A stretch of DNA of 45,520 nucleotides from Clostridia bacterium (GTDB lineage: Bacteria > Bacillota > Clostridia > Oscillospirales > Acutalibacteraceae), in the NCBI GenBank assembly GCA_017380575.1, contig JAFODS010000008.1, positions 1 through 45,520 on the forward strand, written 5' to 3'. Below are positions 5,397 through 38,212 of this stretch, piece by piece. How positions within the stretch are numbered: the first letter of the stretch is position 1; every line of letters begins with the position of its first letter. The notes below the pieces were generated by a model that was given only the letters and a program-made list of their open reading frames with translations, had not been told where the DNA came from and did no database searches. The position numbers and the translations under genes were made by a program.

Positions 5397-5403
5397 CAAT
5401 AAA

Positions 5404-5445
5404 AATCACTTGTGATACCTTAACCGTACCACAAGTGATTTTTTG
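5404..5445 (+). terminator. Rho-independent terminator after GH20
   Basis: An 11-bp stem (AATCACTTGTG 5404-5414 with CACAAGTGATT 5430-5440), 15-nt loop and T-run at 5439-5444. An A-run on the 5' side could let it work on the other strand too. Confidence 0.88.
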
Positions 5446-5477: not shown

Positions 5478-5560
5478 TGACTAATTCGGGTTTGTCGGGA
5501 TGAATCCCGAAAGTAATAGGTAAGAAGTAAGAGTGAAGAAGTGTGGGTCTGCGACGCTGA
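5478..5560. repeat. Intergenic repeat module, inverted copy of 37276-37354
   Basis: The segment containing TTCGGGTTTGTCGGGATGAA and ending GCGACGCTGA is nearly the reverse complement of 37276-37354, apart from a short indel near 5521-5530. It flanks the palindrome array at 5589-5849. No coding potential is seen. Confidence 0.8.
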
Positions 5561-5588
5561 TTTTAATTACCTGTTTTAAATCGTTCTT

Positions 5589-5849
5589 GTAGGGTGTGAC
5601 GCTTGCGACACACCGTTAAATACAGCAGAATATCGGCACGTCGTAAACGTCGTGCCCTACGAACCCAATTTCAAGTAACCGTGTAGGGGACGACGTCCTC
5701 GACGTCCCTTTAAAATTTAATATGATTTAGTGGTCGATTCGTGAATCGCCCCTACGAACCCTGTTTTAGTCAACTGCGTAGGGACGGGCGTCCTTGACCG
5801 TCCGTTAATTCAGCAGAATCTGCGGATGGTCCGGGAGGCCGGTCCCTAC
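5589..5849. repeat. Array of three 72-73-nt GTAGGG...CCCTAC palindromic units
   Basis: Three units occupy 5589-5660, 5683-5755 and 5778-5849 (72, 73 and 72 nt), spaced by 22-nt linkers that both begin GAACCC. Each unit starts GTAGGG, ends CCCTAC, and contains a left and a right hairpin. Left-hairpin stems change in step on both arms: GGTGTG/CACACC, GGGACG/CGTCCC and GGACGG/CCGTCC. The rest of 5446-5964 holds no gene that I can support. Confidence 0.8.
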
Positions 5850-5904
5850 GAGCATAGAAAAGGATTGCACGAAATCAAAGAACTCAACAAACCCGAATTT
5901 GTCG
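5750..5904. repeat. 155-nt direct repeat shared with 37481-37635
   Basis: Aligned by eye without gaps to 37481-37635, with about 13 mismatches. It covers the third palindromic unit plus a module ending in GAATTTGTCG. Several mismatches lie inside the right-hand hairpin stem. Confidence 0.85.
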
Positions 5905-37275: not shown

Positions 37276-37354
37276 TCAGCGTCGCAGCCCCACGCTTCTT
37301 CACACTTACTTATTACTTTCGGGATTCATTCCGACAAACCCGAATTTATCAGTC
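37276..37354. repeat. Inverted copy of module at 5478-5560
   Basis: Near-perfect reverse complement of 5478-5560, with about six bases fewer in the middle. It abuts the second palindrome array. Confidence 0.8.
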
Positions 37355-37371
37355 GAATCTCGCAATATTTC

Positions 37372-37580
37372 GGTACGGGAAACCCGTACCCTACAATCCC
37401 TGAGCAATAATTGTGTTTGCAGGGGAACATATTATGTTCCCGTCAGAAATGTACAAAATTGGCGGGCAGATGATATCTGCCCCTACGAACCTTGTTTCAG
37501 TCAACTGCGTAGGGACGGGCGTCCTCGACCGTCCGTTAACACAGCAGAATCTGCGGACCGCCCGGGAGGCCGGTTCCTAC
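37372..37580. repeat. Second array of GTAGGG...CCCTAC-type palindromes
   Basis: A unit remnant with GGTACGGG/CCCGTACC ends CCCTAC at 37389-37394; a 68-nt unit runs 37419-37486 (GCAGGG...CCCTAC) with perfect stems GGGAACAT/ATGTTCCC and GGGCAGAT/ATCTGCCC; a 72-nt unit runs 37509-37580. Linkers are 24 and 22 nt. Together with the flanking modules this fills most of the 672-nt gene-free gap 37139-37810. Confidence 0.8.
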
Positions 37581-37635
37581 GGGCATAGAGAAGGATTGCA
37601 CGAAATCAAAGAACTCTACAACCCCGAATTTGTCG
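37481..37635. repeat. 155-nt direct repeat shared with 5750-5904
   Basis: Same length as 5750-5904, with no gap and about 13 mismatches by eye. Ends in the same GAATTTGTCG module. Confidence 0.85.
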
Positions 37636-37810: not shown

Positions 37811-37884
37811 GCGGGTGTAGTTTAGTGGTAGAATTCTAGCCTTCCAAGCTAGTCGTGTGGGTTCGATTCCCATCACCCGCTCCA
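37811..37884 (+). tRNA. tRNA-Gly (anticodon TCC)
   Basis: A 74-nt cloverleaf with encoded CCA. Acceptor GCGGGTG pairs with CACCCGC. The anticodon stem CTAGC/GCTAG encloses loop CTTCCAA. T arm is GTGGG-TTCGATT-CCCAT. Confidence 0.95.
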
Positions 37885-37926
37885 TTCTCCCCTAAACCTC
37901 TGCAATAGCAATGAGGGGTAACATAT

Positions 37927-38003
<77 letters not shown>

Positions 38004-38006
38004 TAT

Positions 38007-38084
38007 GGTGGGTATAGCTTAGTTGGTTAAAGCGCCAGTTTGTGGCACTGGAGACCGTCGGTTCGAATCCGACTATCCACCCCA
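38007..38084 (+). tRNA. tRNA-His (anticodon GTG)
   Basis: A 78-nt cloverleaf that includes the encoded extra G(-1), paired with C73, diagnostic of tRNA-His. Acceptor GTGGGTA pairs with TATCCAC. The anticodon stem CCAGT/ACTGG encloses TTGTGGC. CCA is encoded. Confidence 0.95.
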
Positions 38085-38089
38085 CTTAA

Positions 38090-38126
38090 AAGTCTGCAAG
38101 ATTAATTCTTGCAGACTTATCTTTTA
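38090..38126 (+). terminator. Hairpin between tRNA-His and tRNA-Gln
   Basis: A perfect 12-bp stem (AAGTCTGCAAGA 38090-38101 with TCTTGCAGACTT 38107-38118) and 5-nt loop, followed by ATCTTTT. It may end most transcripts before tRNA-Gln or serve as a processing site; no separate promoter is clear for tRNA-Gln. Confidence 0.65.
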
Positions 38127-38137
38127 AAATCAGATAT

Positions 38138-38212
38138 TGGGGTGTCGTCAAGCGGTAAGACACAGCACTTTGACTGCTGCATTCGCTGGTTCGAATCCAG
38201 CCATCCCAGCCA
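38138..38212 (+). tRNA. tRNA-Gln (anticodon TTG)
   Basis: A 75-nt cloverleaf with encoded CCA. Acceptor TGGGGTG pairs with CATCCCA (one G-T). The anticodon stem CAGCA/TGCTG encloses CTTTGAC. T arm contains CTGGTTCGAATCCAG. Confidence 0.95.

Follow-up and report, generated by a model that had tools for sequence, protein, structure and literature searches.

Introduction

REPIN elements were reportedly described by Bertels in 2011, in the context of GTAG-class REPs. The BOX repeat of Streptococcus is said to be modular, MITE-like and intergenic, with conserved end modules and variable inner modules. REP elements are common bacterial repeats, and how transposase and hairpin change together is an open question. 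REPs inside genes for REP-associated tyrosine transposases (RAYTs) of the kind treated here have been known since 2018: the main text of Quentin 2018 (PMC6006769) places REPs inside subclass 2.4 genes, in frame and generally between the HuH and Y motifs, and proposes central deletion as a possible origin of double-foot REPs; its Table 1 locates the 8-aa insertion of subclass 2.4 at alphaB. The kind of element described below is therefore already known; its construction is unusually clear here.

The array in the window and the element around it

The window is the whole stretch of DNA that was analysed, 45,520 nt from a Clostridia bacterium (GenBank assembly GCA_017380575.1, contig JAFODS010000008.1). 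Its array consists of three units, at 5589-5660 (72 nt, hairpin types J/K), 5683-5755 (73 nt, types C/L) and 5778-5849 (72 nt, types A/B), whose starts are spaced 94 and 95 nt apart; the unit lengths and the period given in the initial annotation are thereby confirmed. Hairpin types are named by their first stem letters, with labels coined in this analysis. Each unit is made of two GTAG-footed hairpins in inverted orientation. The outer 6-bp stems are fully paired in all three left hairpins, exactly as first described, and in the right hairpin of unit 1, while the right hairpins of units 2 and 3 have one and two mismatches in the outer six. With two of the six hairpins carrying stem mismatches, pairing is not perfect in every arm. 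Units 1 and 2 fold best with left and right hairpins separate, unit 3 as one long stem.

A genome-wide search of the kind that the initial annotation had proposed, run with the pattern GTAGGG-N35-65-CCCTAC on the window's own assembly (2,524,691 bases in 79 contigs, 88.8% complete), returned 90 units, against one for the pattern read backwards. In stretches sampled around pattern matches, 42 of 45 units lay outside ORFs of at least 150 aa, though such ORFs make up 83% of the sample. GTAG stands directly 5' of an imperfect palindrome, copies are many and mainly intergenic, and doublets are inverted; the array is thus a set of inverted pairs of GTAG-footed hairpins of the REP/REPIN type, and its description as a nonautonomous REP-like element is supported. 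At gathering scores Rfam reported only four tRNAs in the window, so no other known RNA family matched at that threshold.

The real element is wider than the units. It spans 5480-5902 (423 bp), is intergenic and is bounded by the inverted repeat ACAAATTCGGGTTTGT, of which the left copy, ACTAATTCGGGTTTGT (5480..5495, + strand), has one mismatch and the right copy, ACAAACCCGAATTTGT (5887..5902, - strand), is exact. The GTAGGG/CCCTAC that had been likened to terminal inverted repeats are instead REP feet, and the ends of the element lie 109 nt further out on the left and 53 nt further out on the right. Next to the left end repeat is a non-GTAG module (5496..5588), with own-genome matches of 5485-5570 on contig C8 (92%) and of 5480-5570 on C32 (89%). 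Unit 1 then opens with the type J hairpin (5589..5614, +), GGTGTG-A-CG..CG-A-CACACC, and closes with an inverted GTAG hairpin of type K (5635..5660, -). A conserved 22-nt spacer (5661..5682) leads to unit 2, composed of a type C hairpin (5683..5708, +) that is 1 nt from the in-gene hairpins of a congener RAYT (L128) and an inverted type L hairpin with its one stem mismatch (5732..5755, -), 1 nt from an in-gene hairpin of the genome's own RAYT L019/L123. After a second conserved 22-nt spacer, GAACCCTGTTTTAGTCAACTGC (5756..5777), unit 3 begins with a type A hairpin in which one base is changed, TTG for TCG (5778..5803, +), and ends with an inverted hairpin that joins a B-type 5' arm to a non-matching 3' arm (5824..5849, -). 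The remaining segment (5850..5886) is a subterminal arm of the B end, which the other aligned A/B composites have as well. Conservation extends to the spacers between units, which are exactly 22 nt at 14 of 20 sampled junctions, and many of those sampled are close to GAACCCTGTTTCAGTCAACTGC or its reverse complement.

Upstream of the composite, and outside it, an inverted repeat followed by a T run (5401..5443, +) is the likely terminator of a GH20 gene. A second, related composite occupies 37334..37633, with end repeats at 37334-37349 and 37618-37633 and with F-like, D, A (exact) and B (degenerate) hairpins. It lies upstream of a four-tRNA cluster (37811-38209).

RAYT genes and the hairpins inside them

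The initial annotation saw no transposase nearby and proposed looking for a RAYT elsewhere in the genome. The first statement stands for Y1-type enzymes on the window contig (C9), where searches with PF01797 and with a profile of relatives found none; elsewhere in the genome, however, the profile of relatives finds four RAYT genes. PF01797 itself gave five places in the genome, two strong IS200-type matches and three weaker ones. The profile, built from 32 relatives, matches E. coli TnpAREP 4er8 (E 6.8e-12), and HuH and Y1 motifs are present in the proteins. For each of six proteins (four own, two relatives) the best NCBIfam family was NF047646 (REP-associated tyrosine transposase), with scores of 60.4-75.0 bits for all six, under the 80-bit cut-off. 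The subclass 2.4 motifs NH[IFV]H, WQ and YIxNNP mostly fit, with DH, FQ and other variants occurring. The RAYTs of this system appear most like TnpAREP subclass 2.4 / group 4.

Nearly every RAYT gene examined carries its own hairpins in the coding frame, usually as a pair bracketing the HuH codons. The relatives examined were the best 80 of 545, and their records bear titles like Clostridia bacterium, Oscillospiraceae, Ruminococcus, Acetivibrio and Bacillota. In the RAYT loci of these 80, hairpins preceded by GTAG numbered 307. Among 14 control tetramers in the same loci, TAGG gave 292, because it reads the same hairpins one base on, CTAG gave 1 and the other 12 gave 16-46; one of these 12, GTGG, is a known alternative foot of REPs and gave 38. 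At least one GTAG hairpin lies inside the reading frame in 79 of the best 80 of 545, and 59 of these 80 have an inverted pair around the HuH codons, one hairpin on the coding strand before them and one inverted after them. Incomplete cases have the second hairpin only (12/80), the first only (8/80) or none (1/80). First-site hairpins in this set are in phase 0 in 65 of 67 cases, and second-site hairpins occur in all three phases.

When the best 80 of 545 were taken together with three own genes, 166 sites in 83 genes could be looked at by position: the best candidate at a site had a fully paired six-base outer stem at 146 of them and one stem mismatch at 10, and the foot was mismatched at 9. 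The strict rule failed at 23 sites of this set, which by hand count comprise 13 with a slightly broken hairpin in place, 8 with a hairpin just outside the gene and 2 with none. At L076, L078, L084, L100 and L066 the first hairpin lies just upstream of the RAYT gene; genes of this form could represent an intermediate between REPs that flank the gene and REPs within it. In a further family sample of 200 genomes, 71 had a RAYT match, and 25 of the 28 genes fetched carry both hairpins. At L214, L216 and L217 the RAYT gene has long or repeated insertions close to the hairpin sites, which in L216 amount to ~200 nt of imperfect repeats.

Synonymous recoding left 0-2 in-gene hairpins per replicate and codon shuffling 0-3, against 138 observed in the best 80 of 545, which rules out protein constraint as the force behind them. 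Together with the reversed-pattern and tetramer controls, the recoding controls also rule out chance hairpins. The encoded residues vary (VGDGSPVP, VGAIHESP, VGRGLAPA and others) and, as read off residue numbers, fall mostly in two loops of the predicted structure (pLDDT 91). Repeated random insertion of REPs into RAYT genes is unlikely to be the main explanation, given the conserved site and orientation and the phase 0 of nearly all first-site hairpins.

Dispersed hairpins and RAYT lineages

Type A, GTAGGGACGGGCGTCCTCGACCGTCC, is exact at 37509 in the window and has one change at 5778. Exact copies number 37 in this genome, 16 in G004, 12 in G013, 6 in G012 and 1 in G008, with none in 13 other genomes of the genus. 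The same sequence is exactly that of both in-gene hairpins of a RAYT from the congener G012 (L127), and two further genes (L141, L143) combine a first hairpin of type A with a B-like second one, a mixture of the kind seen in the A/B units. Although type A is the commonest type, none of the four RAYTs found in this 88.8% complete assembly carries it. Own RAYTs match type F exactly and type L within 1 nt; types A and I are exact only in congener RAYTs, and type C is 1 nt off. For types J, K, E and G there was no match within 4 nt among genus RAYTs. L174, from elsewhere in the family, has by eye a K-like first and a J-like second in-gene hairpin. The stem type of one own RAYT (L020) was not seen among the sampled dispersed hairpins.

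Counted over the sample, 61 of 141 dispersed hairpins differ by no more than 1 nt from a hairpin located in or next to a RAYT gene of the genus, against a mean of 1.0 and a maximum of 29 for random stems. In the loci of the best 80 of 545, hairpins flanking a RAYT gene within 10 kb share that gene's own stem in 38 of 168 cases (permuted mean 4.4, maximum 16). For flank hairpins more than 1 kb from the RAYT genes, the share with the gene's own stem is only 13 of 125 (permuted mean 2.7, maximum 13 in 3000), so the cognate link is weak at distance.

We consider it probable that the array first noticed forms the interior of a non-autonomous mosaic, 423 bp long and made of REPIN units, ~22-nt spacers and outer inverted repeats, with hairpins that belong to a REP/RAYT system. 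By analogy with characterised relatives, a RAYT (a small tyrosine transposase of the HuH kind) would recognise single-stranded DNA by its GTAG foot and hairpin and would copy or move the units. In this reading different RAYT lineages have different stems, which drift mostly without losing their pairing and so differ between subfamilies by compensatory changes, a drift seen as covariation. The array mixes hairpin types known from several RAYT lineages; the composite as a whole might be moved by RAYTs or by another enzyme acting on the outer repeats.

End repeats and their cargo

Outer end repeats are not a known RAYT feature. The repeat ACAAATTCGGGTTTGT has 90 sites in the genome at no more than one mismatch, where controls gave 0 and 1. 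All 22 sampled arrays have an end repeat (up to three mismatches) within 150 bp on one side or more, and 16 of the 22 have one on both; 50 letter-shuffled patterns found a mean of 0.12 arrays and a maximum of 5. Two of the six arrays missing one end repeat are clipped by the end of the stretch. Neighbouring end-repeat pairs (up to two mismatches, within 800 bp) number 34 in the sample and are 104-575 bp long. Ten of them, of 250-256 bp, enclose A/B beside C/D, C/L or H/I-like units, and some of the 34 enclose more units than these. Another 11 pairs, of 214-242 bp, hold no known GTAG type, and the ten inspected have a different palindromic interior. Non-GTAG interiors in this size range, several with CCCCCAGTCACGACTTCGTCGTG or its complement, were seen at L153, L106, L161, L157, L120, L154 and L158. 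With the same ends around a different palindromic interior, the end repeats serve at least two cargo families. In G010, G012 and G013 many end-repeat copies stand ~95-190 nt from a contig start; composites are thus a probable cause of breaks in short-read assemblies, and the copy numbers given are minimum values.

These ends give weight to a second reading, which we hold possible but less likely than not, in which the composite is a classic MITE: another transposase would act on the ACAAATTCGGGTTTGT ends, and the GTAG hairpins would be mere cargo. Terminal inverted repeats are present, they flank the sampled arrays and they also enclose the non-GTAG interiors. Moreover, window positions 5574-5904 match seven other loci of the same genome (on C32, C60, C37 twice, C38, C55 and C8) over 297-328 bp at 80-91% identity, and the matches of this three-unit block end at the right end repeat. 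Against this, no autonomous partner with the same ends was seen in the sampled genome stretches, and no target duplication was evident by eye in the 14-nt flanks of the 34 end-repeat pairs. None of eight neighbouring end-repeat site pairs 800-5000 bp apart faced inward. The RAYTs themselves were rejected as autonomous partner of the end repeats, since three of the four own genes have no end repeat (up to two mismatches) within about 1.5 kb, and the 241-bp end-repeat element downstream of the fourth (L122) is separate from it. Cargo also has no need to covary or to match RAYT genes, as the GTAG hairpins do.

Stem pairing and RAYT relics

Covariation, which had been proposed as a check, was found in the in-gene hairpins. 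In 42 distinct 26-nt hairpins from inside genes, 95.5% of cells are paired, against 75.5% after shuffling, the former figure being biased upward because the hairpins were picked for near-complete stems. Both-side changes were seen in 63 cells against 15.7 in shuffles, counts that relatedness among the 42 hairpins inflates. Four pairs had a both-side change (3.7 in shuffles) and 15 pair types occurred (12.9 in shuffles), neither number being clearly higher than after shuffling, and one inner pair is unpaired in 12 of the 42.

The two hairpins of a gene are mostly alike. Of the 59 genes with such a pair among the best 80 of 545, 48 have the same first nine stem letters before and after the HuH codons; permuting genes gave a mean of 3.5 and a maximum of 11 in 2000 permutations. 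The further family set showed such sharing in 16 of 25 genes, as a plain count without permutation. A RAYT tree built without the hairpin residues has few columns, and many of its forks are open. By eye, the stems follow its clades, and 36 stem changes fall on it among rows with a hairpin.

Several genomes contain RAYT copies without model positions about 42-98, the segment between the hairpins. Among 18 loci with split profile matches, L202, L204, L208, L210 and L211 have lost the HuH segment and have one fused double-foot hairpin at the junction; at L209 the junction holds a hairpin and part of a second, and at L212 half a hairpin. The bracketed segment is lost with no hairpin left at L201, L203, L205 and L207, and the other seven of the 18 are insertions, frameshifts or truncations. 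Some of the double-foot relics (L202, L204, L208, L210, L211) keep an open frame across the junction. The fused double-foot form fits slippage across the paired stem, and the enzyme need not be involved.

Slippage of this sort also belongs to a further explanation of the compensatory changes, conceivable but in our view doubtful: template switching at quasi-palindromes during replication, in which one arm is copied onto the other with neither selection nor a transposase. The fused hairpin in the five double-foot relics is what slippage would leave, and the inner bulge position is paired in 28 of the 42 distinct in-gene hairpins. In the remaining 14 of 42, however, a G.A or A.G mismatch is kept there, as the left hairpins of the window keep an A.A or G.A mismatch, and arm copying should erase it. 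The in-gene hairpins are also roughly 100-300 nt apart, in opposite orientation and mostly alike, so that copying between hairpins would be needed too.

Apparent turnover at orthologous sites

At one composite (L109, 11637-11892) the corresponding flanks in G010 are 66 nt apart, against 358 nt here, with no element between them; the surrounding intergenic sequence has diverged, which blurs the exact target. For the left flank of L112 no orthologous match was found. The site of the window composite has, in G010, the same end repeats between the same genes (on two contigs) but different hairpins, and the left modules here and in G010 share GGGTCTGCGACGCT. In G013 an end-repeat element without GTAG hairpins precedes the downstream gene of this site. 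At this one locus, ends and cargo therefore seem to turn over separately. No clean empty site for the window locus was present in G008, G009, G010 or G013: in G008 and G009 some 12-13 kb separate the flanking genes, which in G010 and G013 fall on different contigs.

It seems improbable that the hairpins persist for a host function as RNA or DNA structures (terminators, mRNA stabilisers, protein-binding sites) and are not mobile DNA. Their intergenic placement would suit such a role, as would the strong RNA folding of the region (z -8.95) and the frequent position of copies, by eye and uncounted, just after gene ends or terminators. Yet a composite is absent at one orthologous site in G010 and the window site there has different hairpins, the exact end repeat is found in only 4 of 18 genus genomes, and the hairpins also occur inside RAYT genes. 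The relics and the G010 comparisons provide natural before/after pairs for the study of excision and turnover.

Origin of the stem differences

Elsewhere in the genome the window's hairpin types appear again, combined in a limited number of ways. Across copies of the recurring block the order of the outer units, A/B and J/K, is preserved, and in some copies the middle unit is a different one (D/C in L118, D/E in L101). Because the units belong to genome-wide subfamilies, and a block with the same outer units stands at seven other loci, the stem differences were not born in the array. Tandem duplication of one unit followed by divergence, which the regular 94-95 nt spacing might suggest, is contradicted by this subfamily membership and by the seven loci at which a block has kept both the outer units and their order, and we give it almost no credence.

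The initial annotation had read compensatory change as a property of the window array. That reading is not supported, since the array is a block of three older subfamilies. The broader idea that a fold is kept while its sequence changes survives for the in-gene hairpins, on the strength of their covariation, but not as a process inside the array. Units elsewhere that vary without pairing, named at the outset as the observation that would count against it, were not found overall; single uncompensated arms exist, two of them in the window.

A possible built-in switch

A more specific scheme within the REP/RAYT reading is possible, though less likely than not. In these Clostridia each RAYT gene would carry its own recognition hairpins as a matched pair around the HuH codons, and hairpin, loop and enzyme specificity would change together. 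The pair might act as a built-in switch, in that precise loss of the bracketed segment would kill the enzyme and leave a double-foot REP. The in-gene pair would be the source from which dispersed units were copied, and frames of end repeats would be docks for unit exchange. Unit A/B mirrors the pair before and after the HuH codons in L141 and L143, and J/K resembles the pair of L174 in post/pre order. With the hairpin inside the transposase gene, every such gene supplies an enzyme together with its likely target, and dozens of natural stem variants are available for testing enzyme/hairpin pairs.

Comparison with known systems

BOX resembles the composite in its conserved ends, variable interior and intergenic position; what sets the composite apart is an interior of GTAG hairpins with ties to RAYT genes. 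The likeness to the GTAG REP/REPIN/BIME elements, as presented in the main texts of Nunvar 2010 (PMC2817692) and Di Nocera 2013 (PMC3733652), extends to the GTAG foot, the imperfect palindrome, inverted pairs, a mainly intergenic location, mosaics and a genomic RAYT. Here, in contrast, outer end repeats bound the mosaics, several subfamilies are mixed in one array and the host is clostridial, the main texts of PMC3733652 and PMC2817692 making no mention of Firmicutes or Clostridia.

In main-text literature on REP/MITE repeats in Clostridia or gut Firmicutes, on in-gene REPs, on RAYT groups, on composites and on the sequences themselves, we found no matched bracketing pair, no relics lacking the bracketed segment and no end repeats around a changeable hairpin cargo. 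The closest match in that literature is the main text of Quentin 2018 (PMC6006769). Subclass 2.4 / group 4, as set out there, shares with the present RAYTs the HuH, WQ and YI..NP-like motifs and an 8-residue insertion plus a variable insertion after HuH; it also shares in-gene REPs without loss of frame, a stem foot of three G-C pairs and double-foot REPs. In contrast to that description, most genes examined here have an inverted and usually sequence-matched pair, one hairpin before and one after the HuH codons, and some relics lack just the part between the hairpins.
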